Below, piece after piece: positions 28,948-62,447 of a stretch of DNA of 64,000 bases. The number at the start of each line of letters is the position of its first letter. Position 1 is the stretch's first letter. A program made the position numbers and the translations under genes. Source of the stretch: Chryseobacterium sp. CY350 (GTDB lineage Bacteria; Bacteroidota; Bacteroidia; Flavobacteriales; Weeksellaceae); the NCBI RefSeq assembly GCF_027945075.1, contig NZ_CP116034.1, forward strand, positions 62,001 through 126,000, in the 5' to 3' direction. A model generated the notes under the pieces. It was not told where the DNA came from, did no database searches, and worked only from the letters and a program-made list of their open reading frames with translations.

Positions 28948-28978
28948 TTTGTCATGTTATGCAAATGTTATATCTTTG
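28948..28978 (+). promoter_or_regulatory. Strong promoter of the pyrB leader
   Basis: TTTG (28948-28951), 19-base spacer and TATCTTTG (28971-28978): a perfect Bacteroidota promoter with the same spacing as the tRNA-Ser promoter in this window. Transcription should begin at about 28982-28985, at or within a few bases of the leader peptide ATG. Confidence 0.82.
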
Positions 28979-28984
28979 CACCTA

Positions 28985-29056
28985 ATGAATAACACAGTAT
29001 TTATATCATTAGAATTACCGGGCGTAGACGCCCTTTACGATATTTATTTATTTTAA
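28985..29056 (+). CDS. Putative pyrB leader peptide (23 residues)
   Basis: An open frame of 23 codons begins MNNTVFISLE and ends YDIYLF before a TAA at 29054-29056. It starts at or just after the predicted transcription start, so it would be translated from a nearly leaderless message. Its last codons run through a hairpin (29020-29033) and a U-rich stretch (29034-29054, 14 of 21 bases T), and its stop codon overlaps the first bases of the terminator stem at 29055. This is the geometry of the enterobacterial pyrBI leader. There is no run of a single amino acid codon, which argues against amino-acid-specific attenuation. Not experimentally known to me; existence as a translated peptide is inferred. 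Confidence 0.55.
   Translation: MNNTVFISLELPGVDALYDIYLF
29020..29033 (+). promoter_or_regulatory. Putative transcription-pause hairpin in pyrB leader
   Basis: GGGCG and CGCCC (29020-29024 with 29029-29033) close a TAGA tetraloop, immediately followed by a U-rich stretch. Position relative to the terminator resembles the pause hairpin of E. coli pyrBI. Confidence 0.5.
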
Positions 29057-29082
29057 GCGAAGATATTTTCTTCGCTTTTTTT
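29055..29082 (+). terminator. Attenuator terminator in front of pyrB
   Basis: A perfect 9-bp stem (29055-29063 with 29069-29077) with a TATTT loop and a seven-base T run (29076-29082). It lies between the promoter and pyrB, whose ATG is 22 bases further on. No plus-strand gene exists upstream for more than 6 kb, so it cannot be an ordinary end-of-operon terminator. Confidence 0.75.
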
Positions 29083-29103
29083 ATGTTCAAAAATTAAAAT
29101 ATT

Positions 29104-29994
29104 ATGTTTACAATTACCGAACTAAGTACAGACAAAATCAATAAGATACTGACCGAAGCATTGGCTTTTGCTAACGGAAAAAATGTAAAAGTGGAGGGCG
29201 AAGTTTTTTGTTCAAATCTTTTTTTTGAAGACAGTACAAGAACTAAAACAAGCTTCGATATTGCTGAAAGGAAACTCGGTTTGCAGGTTGTTCCATTTGA
29301 TGCCTCAAACAGTTCTGTCAATAAAGGTGAAAGTTTGTATGATACGGTAAAAACCATTGAAAGTATAGGGGTTAATCTCGTTGTAATCAGAGATAAAAAA
29401 GACCGATATTTTGACGAATTGACAAACATCAATATTCCAATTATTAATGGAGGTGACGGCACGGGAAATCACCCTTCGCAATGTATGCTCGATTTGCTTA
29501 CGATTTATCAGGAGTTCGGAACTTTTGAAGGTTTAAAAATTGGGATTGTTGGAGATGTAAAACACAGCCGTGTTGCCAATTCAAATGCAGAAGCTTTAAG
29601 GCGATTAGGTGCTAAAGTATATTTCTCAGGACCTGAACAGTGGTTTGATGAAGGAGCTTTAATTAACGGAACTTATCTTTCTGTAGATGAGATGATTCAC
29701 GATGTAGATGTTTTGATGTTATTGAGAATTCAACACGAAAGACACGACTCGAAGATGAGTTTCTCTGCTTCGGAATACCACAGAAAATATGGTTTGACGA
29801 AAGCCAGAGAAGAAACTATGAAGAAAGAAGCGATCATCATGCATCCCGCACCCATCAACAGGGGTGTAGAAATCGATACCGATTTGGTAGAATGTGAACG
29901 CTCAAGAATTTTCAAGCAAATGCAGAACGGTGTCTTCGCAAGAATGGCGATTCTAAAAAATGCTTTGGAAGAGAAAGGTTTTACATTTAAGTAA
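29104..29994 (+). CDS. pyrB: Aspartate carbamoyltransferase catalytic subunit
   Basis: A 296-residue enzyme making carbamoyl-aspartate, the first committed step of pyrimidine synthesis. The carbamoyl-phosphate site STRTK is at residues 44-48, HPSQ and the C-terminal HPAPINRG loop are present, and length is normal. No pyrI regulatory subunit gene is adjacent, so it is likely of the unregulated trimeric kind. Expression is probably controlled by the upstream leader. carA follows 134 bases later. Confidence 0.96.
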
Positions 29995-30128: not shown

Positions 30129-31202
30129 ATGAAGAAAAAATTAATACTGGAATCCGGTGAAGTTTTTCATGGAGAAGGTTTCGGATCAGATTGGGAAACA
30201 GCAGGAGAGGTGGTTTTCAATACCGGAATGACGGGATATCAGGAATTGATTTCTGATCCATCGTATTGTGGTCAGATTGTTTGCATGACGTATCCGCTCA
30301 TTGGAAATTACGGGATCAACCGTGATGATTATGAAAGTATTGAACCTGCAATCAAAGGTCTTATTGTAAAAGAAATATGCGATTTACCTTCCAATTTCAG
30401 AACACAGATTACTTTAGACGAGTTATTTAAAAAGAAGAATTTATCAGGAATTTCAGGAATTGACACCAGAAGACTGACAAGAATTCTTCGTAACTCAGGG
30501 GTTGTAAAAGGAAAAATCGTGAATGCAGATGCCGACGATAATATGACTGTTGAAGAACTGAAATCCACAACATTTCCAACTAATCAGGTGGAACAGGTAT
30601 CAACGAAAACTTCTTACGCCAATCCGGGAAGAGGTCTTAAAGTAGTACTTGTCGATTTTGGATCTAAATTAGGAATAATCAGGGAATTATCTCAAAGAAA
30701 CTGTGATATCATTGTCGTTTCACAAGATACAACTGCAGAGGAAATTTTATTAATGGATCCAGATGGAATCATGTTATCCAACGGTCCCGGAGATCCTGAA
30801 GATAATCAACAAGCTTTAGAAATGATCCGTGGATTATTAGGAAAAGTTCCAATTTTCGGAATTTGCCTTGGACATCAGTTGATTGGCCTTGCTTGTGGCG
30901 CAAAAACGTTTAAATTGAAATTCGGACACAGAGGAGGAAATCACCCTGTTTTGGATTTGGAAAAAAACAAAGTGGCTATTACTTCTCAAAATCACGGTTA
31001 CGCTGTTGATCAGGAGAGCCTTAAAGAAACAGATTTAATAGAGACTCATATCGCATTGAATGACAGAACAAATGAAGGTTTGAAACACAAGATTCATCCT
31101 TGCTTCTCAGTTCAGTATCACCCGGAAGCGAGCCCGGGTCCTGAGGATGCGAATTATTTGTTTGATGATTTCATCACGTTGATGGAGGATTTTAAAAAGT
31201 AA
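30129..31202 (+). CDS. carA: Carbamoyl-phosphate synthase small (glutaminase) subunit
   Basis: A 357-residue class I amidotransferase that hydrolyses glutamine and channels ammonia to CarB. The N-terminal domain shows VVFNTGMTGYQE and the GATase domain FGICLGHQLIGLACG with its nucleophile Cys, plus HPEASPGPED with the catalytic His and Glu. The partner carB follows but is separated from carA by an inserted transposase unit of about 0.7 kb. Confidence 0.97.
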   Translation: MKKKLILESGEVFHGEGFGSDWETAGEVVFNTGMTGYQELISDPSYCGQIVCMTYPLIGNYGINRDDYESIEPAIKGLIVKEICDLPSNFRTQITLDELFKKKNLSGISGIDTRRLTRILRNSGVVKGKIVNADADDNMTVEELKSTTFPTNQVEQVSTKTSYANPGRGLKVVLVDFGSKLGIIRELSQRNCDIIVVSQDTTAEEILLMDPDGIMLSNGPGDPEDNQQALEMIRGLLGKVPIFGICLGHQLIGLACGAKTFKLKFGHRGGNHPVLDLEKNKVAITSQNHGYAVDQESLKETDLIETHIALNDRTNEGLKHKIHPCFSVQYHPEASPGPEDANYLFDDFITLMEDFKK

Positions 31203-31274: not shown

Positions 31275-31721
31275 ATGTCAACATTTCGTCAAATATATTA
31301 TCAGATTGTCTTTAGTACGAAGCATAGAAAACCTGTGTTGAATATTGAACATGAAGATCAATTATATAAATACATTTGGGGAATTGTTAAGAATAAAAAT
31401 TGCAGACTTTATCGGATCAATGGAATGCCGGATCATATTCATTTATTAACAGATCTTCATCCATCAGTTTCCTTAAGCAGTTTTGTAAAAGATATTAAGG
31501 TTTCAAGCAACTTATGGATAAAGCAAAGCGGATTATTTCCTGATTTTGAAGAATGGCAAACTGGTTATGGCGCATTCACTTATTCAGAAAGAGAAAAAGA
31601 TATGATCATGAATTATATTAAAAATCAAAAAGAACATCATAAGAATGAATCTTTTGAGGTTGAATATAAGAATTTGCTAAAATCTCATGGAGTTAAATTT
31701 GATGAAAAATATCTTTGGTAA
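31275..31721 (+). CDS. REP-associated/IS200-like tyrosine transposase (RAYT)
   Basis: A 148-residue Y1 HUH single-strand transposase. The HUH metal-binding motif is PDHIHLL (His residues near 53 and 55) and the catalytic Tyr probably lies in IMNYIKNQKEHH near residue 114-115. It opens with the usual YQIVFSTKHRKPVL. Flanking REP-like hairpins and lack of a paired TnpB make RAYT more likely than a full IS200/IS605. It splits the carA-carB pair, with all three genes on the same strand. Confidence 0.88.
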   Translation: MSTFRQIYYQIVFSTKHRKPVLNIEHEDQLYKYIWGIVKNKNCRLYRINGMPDHIHLLTDLHPSVSLSSFVKDIKVSSNLWIKQSGLFPDFEEWQTGYGAFTYSEREKDMIMNYIKNQKEHHKNESFEVEYKNLLKSHGVKFDEKYLW

Positions 31722-31832: not shown

Positions 31833-31880
31833 AGAACCATGAAATGGTTCAACAATAATAGCCATGGATGCGATCCATGG
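31833..31880 (+). repeat. REP-like hairpin pair, downstream copy abutting carB
   Basis: GAACCAT/ATGGTTC (31834-31840 with 31844-31850, GAA loop) and a perfect 8-bp CCATGGAT/ATCCATGG stem (31862-31869 with 31873-31880). It ends about 20 bases before the carB start. Confidence 0.75.
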
Positions 31881-31899
31881 AATAATAAAAAAGAAAAAA

Positions 31900-34800
31900 A
31901 TGAAAAGAAACGACATAAAAACAATTTTAGTAATCGGTTCCGGCCCAATTATCATTGGTCAGGCAGCGGAATTTGATTACGCAGGAACGCAGGCTTGTCT
32001 TTCCTTGAGAGAGGAAGGCTACAAGGTGATTTTGATCAACTCAAACCCTGCAACGATTATGACGGATGTTGAAATCGCTGACAAGGTTTACATCGAGCCG
32101 ATTTCACTTCAGTTTGTAAGTCACATCATCAGAAAAGAGCGTCCGGATGCACTTTTACCGACTCTTGGTGGACAAACTGGTCTGAACATGGCGGTCGAAT
32201 TGGAAAATTCAGGAATTCTTGAAGAATGTAAAGTTGAGGTTCTGGGAACTAAGCTATCTGCGATCAACAGAGCGGAAGACAGAGATTTGTTCCGTGAACT
32301 GATGAGAGAGTTGAACGAACCCGTTCCTGAATCAGATATAGTAAACACGGTTGAAGGAGCAATAAATTTCGCTAACGAAATTGGTTATCCGGTCATCGTT
32401 CGTCCAGCATTCACAATGGGAGGAACAGGTGGTGGAATCGCTGCTACCGAAGCTGAACTGAGAGAAATTGCTGAATTGGGATTAAAATACAGCCCGGTTA
32501 CGCAATGTCTGATCGAAAGATCAATCGCAGGTTTCAAAGAAATTGAATACGAAGTAATGCGGGATGCAAACGACAATGCGATTGTGGTTTGTAACATGGA
32601 AAATATAGATCCTGTTGGAGTTCATACCGGAGACTCAATCGTTGTAGCGCCATCTCAGACACTTTCTGACAGAGAATATCAGATGTTGAGAAATGCTTCC
32701 CTGAAAATCATCAGAGCTTTAGGAATTGAGGGCGGATGTAACGTACAGTTGGCTTTAGACCCGCATTCATTTGAATATTACATCATCGAGGTAAACCCAA
32801 GAGTTTCTCGTTCATCAGCTCTAGCAAGTAAGGCAACTGGTTATCCGATTGCTAAAATTGCTGCTAAAATTGCCGTAGGACTGACTTTAGATGAAATCAT
32901 GAATCCGGTTACAGGTAAAACTTACGCTTGTTTCGAGCCGGCTTTGGATTATGTGGTAACTAAATTCCCAAGATTCCCTTTCGATAAATTTGAGACTGCG
33001 GACAGAAGATTGTCTACTCAAATGAAAGCGACTGGAGAAGTAATGGCAATCGGAAGAAACTTCGAAGAATCTTTACAGAAAGCGGTTCGTTCACTGGAAA
33101 CAGGTTTGAGACATTTAGGTTTAAAAACAAAACAGGCTGCCGCTTTAACTGACGAAGATATCGAAAGAAGAATCAGAGTGTGTGATGACGAAAGACTGTT
33201 TATCATCTGTGATGCTTTAAGAAGAGGTTACGACTGGGAACAGATTGTAGAATGGAGTAAAATTGATAAGTTCTTCATCTGGAAATTAAAAAAATTAGTT
33301 GATTTCGAAAAAGTAATTGCTGATAATAAATTCGACAAAGAAATTTTAATTCAGTCTAAAAAATTAGGTTTCTCAGATCAGAATATCGCTCATTTGTGGG
33401 AATCTTCGCAAAGAGAGGTTTACAATTTCAGAAAAGAAAACGGAATTGTGCCGGTTTACAAAATGGTAGACACCTGTGCTGCTGAATTTGAAAGCGAAAC
33501 ACCATATTTCTACGGAACTTACGAGGAGGAAAACGAATCTGTAGTAACCGATAAAGAAAAAATCATAGTTCTTGGTTCTGGCCCGATCAGAATCGGACAG
33601 GGAGTTGAGTTTGACTACGCAACCGTTCACTCGGTTTGGGCTATCAAAGAAATGGGTTACGAAGCAATTATCATCAACAATAACCCTGAAACTGTTTCTA
33701 CAGACTTCTCGATTTCAGACAAATTATATTTCGAACCTTTGACGGAAGAAGATGTGATGAGCATCATCGACCTTGAAAAACCAAAAGGAGTTGTTGTACA
33801 GTTCGGTGGACAAACAGCCATCAATTTAGCAGATAAATTGGCAGCTTACGGCGTTCAGATTTTGGGAACTTCACTGGAAGATTTAGACAGAGCTGAAAAC
33901 AGAGACAAGTTTGAAAAAGCCCTTCAGGAAATGGGAATTCCGCAACCTTTAGGAAAAACTTCAACTTCAAAAGAAGAAGCGATTGTGATTGCAAATGAGA
34001 TCGGTTATCCGGTTTTGGTTCGTCCAAGCTACGTTTTGGGAGGTAGAGCCATGGAAATTGTCTACACGGAAGCAGAACTGGCGCATTACATGGAATTCGC
34101 GGTAGATGCAAGTCCGGATCAGCCAGTTTTAGTTGACCGATATATCACGGGAAGAGAAGTGGAAGTCGATGCGATTTGCGACGGCGAAACGGTGATCATT
34201 CCAGGAATCATGGAGCACATCGAAAGAGCGGGAGTTCACTCCGGTGACTCGATTGCAGTGTATCCGCCACAGAATGTTTCTCAGGCAGAAATCGATACTT
34301 TGGTAGATTACACTGAAAGATTGGCTAAAGGGTTGAATTTGGTTGGTTTAATGAATATTCAGTACGTGCTTTTTGAAGGAAACGTGTATGTGATTGAAGT
34401 AAACCCAAGATCGTCAAGAACAGTTCCTTTCTTATCTAAAATTACGGAAGTTCCAATGGCAAATCTTGCTACAAAAGCGATTTTAGGTCAGAAACTGAAA
34501 GATTTAGGATATAAAAACGGATTGGTTCCAAAGAAAGAAGGTGTTTTCGTGAAAGTTCCTGTGTTTTCTTTCTCAAAATTAACGAAAGTTGACATCTCTT
34601 TAGGCCCGGAAATGAAGTCTACAGGAGAAGTGATGGGGAAAGACACGACTTTGGAAAAAGCATTGTACAAAGGATTGGTTGCAGCAGGAAGAAAAGTTCC
34701 GATGCACGGCTCAATTTTGTTCACGGTAGCTGATAAGCACAAGCAGGAAGCAGCTGACTTAGCATCAAGATTCCATGAAGTTGGTTTCAGAATCTGGGCA

Positions 34801-35079
34801 ACAGAAGGAACTGCAAAATTCTTTGCAGAAAAAGGAATTCCTTGCAAAATCGGATATAAAATAGGAGAGGAGAGTGTCAACCTGATTGATTTGATTCAGA
34901 AAGGAAAAGTTCAGTATGTTGTCAACACGATGACGAAAGGAAAGCAGTCTGAACGAGACGGTTTCCAGATCAGAAGAATGAGCGTTGAAAATGGTGTTCC
35001 TTGTTTAACATCAATGGATACAGTGGAAGCAATTCTGAAAGTTATCGAAAGCATGAGTTTCAAAATGGAGACGATGTAA
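31900..35079 (+). CDS. carB: Carbamoyl-phosphate synthase large subunit
   Basis: A 1059-residue enzyme with two homologous ATP-grasp halves: the first begins [15 protein letters not shown] (about 15-29), the second [15 protein letters not shown] (about 570), and a C-terminal MGS-like regulatory domain covers about residues 930-1059. Makes carbamoyl phosphate for pyrimidine and arginine synthesis with CarA. The ATG at 31900 gives the family N-terminus; an upstream in-frame ATG at 31864 belongs to the REP hairpin and would add a 12-residue Lys-rich stretch. Confidence 0.97.
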
Positions 35080-61631: not shown

Positions 61632-62447
61632 TTAATGAAAGGTAGCGAGTGTCTGTTTTAAGGTCTCAAGATCGATTAAATTCATTTTAACTCCAATAAA
61701 GATAATAAGCAAAATGCTGATCAGGAAAAAAAGAAATATAAAGCAGTAACCGAGAATGAACCATATGATTGTATTAATTACATTTCCGATAATTCCTAAC
61801 TTTTTTATCAGGAATTTCTGACTGTTCTCAAACCATGATTTTCGCCTTGGTTTCCGTGGCTGCATTTCTCTGTCATTAAGTTCATCGATTATGTGTACCA
61901 CATCGTCTATGTATTTTCCGTACATATAAAACAACCAGTACTTTAAGATAAATGAGATGACTAGAATAGTGATTACAAAAGAGGAAATGAATACTGCGAG
62001 ATTATATTTAATATCGAATTGAAAATTTATGTGAATTAGTGATAACAGAAAAGCTAAAGGAATATACGATATATAATACGATATGTAGATCTGCTTTGAA
62101 ACCAGCAATTGTGTTTTGAGATTAAAGAGATCATAATTTGTATTGGTATTTTCACTTTTCAGAAGCTTGTACAGCTTTCGAAATCTGGAGTAATAATATA
62201 TGATGATCATCAACGTTAATATCGAAACCAGAATAGAAATGATTCTGATATTCTGATCGTCTGTTACAGAAGGAAGTCCGGTGAAAATCATTGGTGTCGA
62301 AATGATCATAAGCCAAAATTCCGTCTGCATATTTATTTTCAGCATCTGTAGCGGCGAGTGAATTTCATTTTGCCTTTCCAGAGATATTTCGGGTGGATTC
62401 TGGCTGTTTTCTTTTTTCCAGAGGTCTTTAAAGTTATCTAACTCCAT
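61632..62447 (-). CDS. Membrane protein following the ECF sigma factor
   Basis: A 271-residue protein with a short N-terminal cytoplasmic part (FKDLWKKENSQNPPEISLERQNEI) and about six helices. The first 25 residues resemble the start of proteins placed after sigma factors in Bacteroidota. It follows the sigma gene by 17 bases, so an anti-sigma or sensor role is plausible, but there is no zinc-anti-sigma motif (HxxxCxxC). Confidence 0.7.
   Translation of the reverse strand: MELDNFKDLWKKENSQNPPEISLERQNEIHSPLQMLKINMQTEFWLMIISTPMIFTGLPSVTDDQNIRIISILVSILTLMIIIYYYSRFRKLYKLLKSENTNTNYDLFNLKTQLLVSKQIYISYYISYIPLAFLLSLIHINFQFDIKYNLAVFISSFVITILVISFILKYWLFYMYGKYIDDVVHIIDELNDREMQPRKPRRKSWFENSQKFLIKKLGIIGNVINTIIWFILGYCFIFLFFLISILLIIFIGVKMNLIDLETLKQTLATFH

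Follow-up and report, generated by a model that had tools for sequence, protein, structure and literature searches.

A probable translation-coupled attenuator in front of pyrB in Chryseobacterium and other Weeksellaceae

Judging from comparative sequence analysis, we consider it probable that pyrB of Chryseobacterium sp. CY350, probably together with carA and carB, is controlled by a pyrBI-type transcription attenuator that is coupled to translation. The gene is preceded by a short leader frame whose stop codon lies at the base of an intrinsic terminator, and comparison across the family Weeksellaceae found this frame, its stop position, an internal hairpin, the terminator and the gene context conserved in genomes in which PyrR was not found. 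Attenuation of pyrBI is a classical example in enteric bacteria, and its logic is known from E. coli; what is new here is most likely a different layout of it, spread across a family of Bacteroidota with no PyrR found.

Layout of the pyrB leader

The features in front of and downstream from pyrB are listed in Table 1, with positions numbered along the window, that is, the whole 64,000-nucleotide stretch of DNA that was analysed (positions 62,001 to 126,000 of contig NZ_CP116034.1). A sequence-only reading of the window had described a promoter, a 23-codon frame, a GGGCG/CGCCC hairpin, a U-rich stretch, a TAA at the terminator base and pyrB, and we located all of these in the sequence. It had also stated that the terminator has no upstream gene to serve. 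This proved correct, since the two genes nearest to the leader on its upstream side are both encoded on the minus strand.

Table 1. Features of the pyrB leader and the downstream genes (positions in the window)
Feature	Position	Strand	Details
Promoter, Bacteroidota type	28948..28978	+	TTTG 28948-28951, 19 bases, TATCTTTG 28971-28978
Predicted transcription start	28983..28983	+	2 bases upstream of the leader ATG; predicted from the –12 to –5 rule (PMC9723704)
Leader open frame	28985..29056	+	23 codons + TAA (29054-29056), MNNTVFISLELPGVDALYDIYLF
Possible 5' hairpin	28982..29012	+	CTAATGA 28982-28988 with TCATTAG 29006-29012, start codon inside
Presumed pause hairpin (middle hairpin)	29020..29033	+	GGGCG-TAGA-CGCCC
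U-rich stretch, presumed UTP-sensitive pause region	29034..29054	+	14 T in 21
Intrinsic terminator (attenuator)	29055..29082	+	9-bp stem 29055-29063 with 29069-29077, 5-nt loop, seven T 29076-29082
pyrB, aspartate carbamoyltransferase	29104..29994	+	NF002032, 358.7 bits, cut-off 263
carA	30129..31202	+	Passes NCBIfam cut-off
carB	31864..35079	+	Passes NCBIfam cut-off

The leader ATG lies 6 bases downstream of the promoter box, the terminator stem begins 70 nt downstream of this ATG with the stop codon at its base, and 21 bases separate the last terminator T from the pyrB ATG. In Flavobacterium psychrophilum, the TAnnTTTG box is positioned at –12 to –5, and the order is described as lacking Shine-Dalgarno sequences, according to work on this species (PMC9723704). 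Applied to the pyrB promoter, this spacing predicts the start given in Table 1, and the leader message would accordingly be near-leaderless.

The folding energy of the leader (z = –4.15) was more favourable than that of 200/200 dinucleotide shuffles, and the leader occurs as a single copy in the genome. We searched the genome for TAnnTTTG-N6-ATG sites and found 124, compared with 88 for a reversed-pattern control. Among the first 30 of the 124 sites by position, the pyrB leader alone had a frame no longer than 60 codons with a stop touching a terminator; at another of these sites (L249), a 40-codon frame was followed by a terminator 24 nt past its stop.

Gene order and strand indicate that carA likely belongs to the same operon as pyrB, and carB possibly belongs to this operon as well. 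The gap between carA and carB contains a gene (31275-31721) for an IS200-like Y1 transposase (PF01797, 101 bits), which may thus interrupt the pyrB-carA-carB operon or sit within it.

Conservation of the frame and the RNA structures

A PyrB homolog was present in 148/148 Chryseobacterium genomes searched, and pyrB loci were obtained from 30 of them. A second set for the genus consisted of the best 80 of 274 loci from named genomes (79 from Chryseobacterium and one from a Weeksellaceae bacterium), with strains overlapping those of the 30-locus set; the 110 loci together yielded 90 distinct upstream regions. The leader was found in 90/90 of these regions, in the form of 40 distinct leader sequences with a mean column identity of 90%, two of which (L045 and L088) have a frame that extends into the terminator. 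For the family, PyrB matches were obtained in 114 of 148 genomes, 20 of which belong to Chryseobacterium, and the other genera supplied 94 pyrB upstream regions from 93 genomes (one of which carries pyrB twice; one genome with a cut-off pyrB was omitted). Outside the genus, a leader was counted where TAnnTTTG was followed, 5–7 bases further, by the ATG of an open frame, with a terminator upstream of pyrB. Such leaders occurred at 85/94 loci and in 24/25 other genera, and the nine loci without a standard leader all belong to a single genus (g17). The complete comparison set contained 175 leaders including those of Chryseobacterium, 100 of which were distinct from the ATG to the stem. TAnnTTTG was present in 100/100 distinct leaders, with a gap of 6 between box and ATG in 93, and the mean column identity among 46 leaders across genera was 55%.

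We then asked how the three reading frames differ in the 100 distinct leaders. Frame 0 was open until 21 nt before the stem in all of them, compared with 2 for frame +1, which was often shut immediately by ATGA, and 33 for frame +2. With one leader per genus, the frame was open in 25/25, compared with 9.0 expected from dinucleotide shuffles. A stop located 1–9 nt before the stem was found in frame 0 in 86 of the 100 leaders, compared with 8 and 7 for the two alternative frames. In addition, where a stop triplet occurred at –3, it was in frame in 57/62 leaders, and in the majority of leaders in 11/13 genera (P = 2 × 10⁻⁴ by genus). The first in-frame stop was scored before the stem in 87/100 leaders, in or past the stem in 11 and as missing before pyrB in 2; one of the 11 (L068) had been given the wrong stem because of GCGAAG in its middle hairpin, and its true stop, at the stem base, raises the first count to 88. 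Thus, the open frame is kept in relatives from 25 genera, whereas the sequence-only reading had named a lack of its conservation as refuting, and the placement of the stop relative to the stem, which that reading had proposed to check, is kept with it.

The same reading had also looked to third-position substitution in the leader, and here the expectation was not borne out. Synonymous changes accounted for 69 of 775 single changes in g1 (random 0.22) and 51 of 336 in g9 (random 0.21), the two largest sets, neither of which displayed a preference, and for 16 of 56 in g26 (random 0.19), where there was some excess; in the small sets, the counts were 0/10 in g5, 6/10 in g11 and 4/4 in g2, so that a preference was present in g11 and g2, and in none of the six sets are the pairs independent. 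Because third positions displayed no consistent preference, a conserved function of the peptide was not supported, and the case for coding rests on the frame and the stop. Translation up to the stem, rather than one peptide sequence, seems to have been kept. Such inconsistent constraint on the peptide fits the logic of pyrBI, because it is the act of translation that matters there.

For the RNA structures, covariation was counted in 46 diverse leaders, a subset of the 100 distinct ones. In the terminator, 99.5% of the cells were paired, and changes on both sides were found at 5 of the 9 pairs. In the middle hairpin, a core of three pairs was kept in 80.4%, with compensatory changes on both sides at 2 of them. 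The values observed for the whole structure were reached by 0/500 shuffles, a comparison that leans towards the middle hairpin because the structure to be counted had itself been chosen from this alignment. When RNAalifold alone was applied to the family alignment, nothing but the terminator was recovered. Folding energies of the middle region exceeded those of shuffles over 25 genera (Fisher's method, P = 7 × 10⁻⁷), individually at P < 0.05 in 7/25. The hairpin and terminator, whose conservation in relatives the sequence-only reading had proposed to check, are therefore found there, with covariation.

The spacing between these two elements was also narrow: among 99 leaders, the median distance from the 3' end of the middle hairpin to the first G-C pair of the terminator was 23 nt (middle half, 22–25), and this interval contained a median of 11 T. 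The T fraction was 0.48 in the 20 nt immediately upstream of the stem, compared with 0.29 elsewhere in the frame, and was higher in 24/25 genera.

A further hairpin may form at the 5' end and hold the start codon, for which support was moderate. Folding gave a Fisher P value of 1.5 × 10⁻⁴ (5/25 genera at <0.05), and covariation of the two 5-mers gave T-A 4, T-G 0, C-A 2 and C-G 7 genus-by-base units (P = 0.021), with neither arm in 13/28 such units and both in 2. An earlier test with a regular expression, based on the first CATT, gave P = 0.29. In g23 and g24 (L131 and L170), the leader starts with CAATG-GAAA-CATTG, which would form a compact hairpin whose stem includes the start codon.

We also built a covariance model (R1) from 46 of the leaders and searched it against two draws of genomes; as many of the same genomes had contributed to the model, the result is informative mainly on specificity. 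In an order-wide draw, the best match lay upstream of pyrB in 28/29 family genomes, the exception (G175) having no PyrB match, and weak matches (E 0.02–0.03) occurred in 2/167 genomes outside the family. In the family draw, R1 matched 103/148 genomes, that is, 102 of the 114 with PyrB and one (G216) with a weak match elsewhere. The 12 PyrB genomes that it missed were nine of g17 together with G162, G164 and G202. Six matches in this draw were not upstream of pyrB (E 0.002–0.05). Five of them, all except the one in G249, were read, and in none was a leader of the same kind seen: three were situated where a gene ends, at a terminator or immediately beyond it, and two had no clear gene.

Proposed mechanism and alternative signals

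Under the proposed mechanism, RNA polymerase would start about 2 bases upstream of the leader ATG, make the middle hairpin and then copy the U-rich stretch. When UTP is ample, polymerase would pass this stretch without stalling, the terminator would fold ahead of the ribosome and the transcript would end near 29082. When UTP is low, polymerase would pause in the U-rich stretch, and a ribosome coming from the 5' end could catch up with it; standing at the TAA, this ribosome would cover the 5' arm of the terminator and let polymerase continue into pyrB. According to one study in E. coli (PMC4824070), termination efficiency dropped from ~90% to <10% when a stop codon was shifted to 5 bp upstream of a terminator, whereas terminators lying less than 100 bp into a frame generally remain active, except where, as in pyrBI, polymerase pausing brings about coupling with the ribosome. 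This geometry matches that of the Chryseobacterium leader, in which the stop lies at the stem base and the presumed pause signals lie upstream of the stem. The pyrBI-like attenuator put forward in the sequence-only reading thus gains support from the open frame in 100/100 leaders, the in-frame stop at the stem, the covariation of hairpin and terminator, the spacing between the two, and the failure to find PyrR.

A translated leader could also respond to a signal other than UTP, such as the slowing of ribosomes at scarce amino acids (e.g. Asp, Asn, Ile, Phe or Tyr) or the general rate of translation. This possibility would agree with the conservation of the leader frame, and aspartate is the substrate of PyrB. 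Moreover, the leaders contained more Asp (43 versus 16.6) and Phe (67 versus 37.1) than expected from base-shuffled leaders, a comparison that ignores normal codon usage. However, no run of a single cognate codon was seen in the leaders, and six leaders of g2 contain 0–1 Asp. Pairing of an upstream segment with the 5' arm of the terminator was detected at <0.05 in only 1/25 genera, and there is thus little sign of an alternative antiterminator helix. In addition, the amino-acid attenuators surveyed in PMC4824070 have their terminators >20 bp past the leader stop, whereas 85 of 100 stops lie 1–9 nt before the first G-C pair of the stem here. We therefore regard a signal of this kind as unlikely.

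Another explanation is that the leader RNA is bound by PyrR, another protein or a ligand, and that the open frame is incidental. The strong conservation of the primary sequence within Chryseobacterium and the presence of up to three candidate hairpins would be in line with such an element. On the other hand, the frame and its in-frame stop are kept even though the sequence diverges between genera, and the leader had no Rfam match at the gathering score. PyrR was found in 0/148 family genomes, that of strain CY350 included, although 6/14 control genomes were positive, and in 0/36 genomes of Chryseobacterium. A bound RNA element is thus quite improbable. Finally, terminators are common after small genes, and a constitutive leader, in which the terminator fixes a low level of pyrB or is part of a small gene whose peptide has a separate role, would suit the predominance of synonymous changes in the small sets g2 and g11, but it is made very improbable by the stop-to-stem geometry kept in most leaders and in 24/25 other genera, by the lack of purifying selection on the peptide in the largest sets, and by the finding of no further TAnnTTTG from the terminator to pyrB in the window.

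Relation to known pyrimidine and leader-peptide systems

The pyrBI-type attenuator that we favour can be compared most directly with E. coli pyrBI and its leader pyrL. The target gene is the same, and in both leaders a start codon is followed by a hairpin, a U-rich stretch and then a terminator, which lies within a short frame or where this frame ends; the proposed mechanism is that described in PMC5021804 and PMC4824070. However, pyrL has 44 codons and a Shine-Dalgarno-like GGAGG, whereas the Chryseobacterium leader has 23 codons and is near-leaderless if its start is predicted correctly. Furthermore, pyrL crosses the terminator and stops 44 nt past the start of the stem, 3 nt before pyrB, whereas the Chryseobacterium frame stops at the stem base. 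A pyrL-like frame running through the terminator to near pyrB was not found in the window, consistent with the 88/100 leaders that stop before the stem. Membership of the E. coli pyrL family by descent was not supported, because the leader peptide had no Pfam match at E values up to 1 and the PyrB of strain CY350 is only 33% identical to that of E. coli.

PyrR-mediated attenuation of the Bacillus pyr operons is likewise terminator-based. This system, and the pyrR-pyrB pairs of other Flavobacteriales, control the same gene but require PyrR, which no family genome yielded. The PyrR model scored above the cut-off in 17/23 other Flavobacteriales genomes examined, and in 17/17 of these a PyrB match lay no more than 1 kb away, on the strand that also carries pyrR. 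The strong PyrB matches from other Flavobacteriales were 38–45% identical to the protein of strain CY350 over the matched part, and at an E value of 1e-70 matches were obtained in only 7 genomes, all belonging to the family, among 296 of the phylum. This PyrB lineage so appears to go with the attenuator in place of PyrR. No donor of PyrB was seen among the best 120 kin, all of which were at least 89% identical and, by the names given, were Chryseobacterium.

Leader-peptide attenuators of amino-acid operons have been reported in F. psychrophilum (PMC9723704), which belongs to the same order and also has a short translated leader upstream of a terminator. In contrast to such amino-acid attenuators, the pyrB leader has no clear antiterminator and no cognate codon run was seen in it, and its stop touches the stem. 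Short frames reminiscent of leaders have been noted in B. thetaiotaomicron (PMC7366714), and trpL of Sinorhizobium meliloti is leaderless, its peptide frame starting where the transcript starts (PMC7298713). It thus shares with the pyrB leader a frame at the RNA 5' end, which is predicted in our case, but it is a tryptophan leader with no link to pyrimidines. Among the matches listed in a literature search by title and abstract, none described a pyrimidine attenuator in Bacteroidota; subscription papers were mostly outside its scope, and novelty is to that extent unproven. If the pyrBI-type mechanism operates here, UTP sensing through coupling of ribosome and polymerase has evolved more than once, and close coupling of the two is implied for Bacteroidota. 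The leader of ~100 bases could then act as a simple reporter of UTP levels in Weeksellaceae.

A frame running through a terminator to near pyrB, as in E. coli pyrBI, also occurs in g17, whose PyrB is 51–54% identical to the query. In 7 of the 9 loci of this genus (L177, L223–L230), a frame with a putative TTG start begins 31–60 nt downstream of the TAnnTTTG box, crosses a different terminator and ends shortly upstream of pyrB; L227 and L228 have no such frame. As a tentative and rather doubtful scenario, control by PyrR may have been swapped for a translation-coupled attenuator that arose independently of the enterobacterial one. Its near-leaderless start would then belong to the sensor: the 5' hairpin holding the start codon would hold back the loading of ribosomes, which could catch up with polymerase only when a shortage of UTP has slowed it, and the two layouts, with the stop at the stem or the frame through the stem, would then have evolved within one family.

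With respect to the distribution of PyrB itself, the 34 of 148 family genomes without a match, 30 of them among the 140 genomes of good quality, and the 7 of 33 family genera with no match at all suggest that pyrimidine synthesis has been lost or that a very different PyrB is present there. One genome (G159) carries two pyrB copies (L142 and L220), which share 76% and 63% identity with the query and each have their own leader; this could be due to contamination, reported at 2%, or to duplication.
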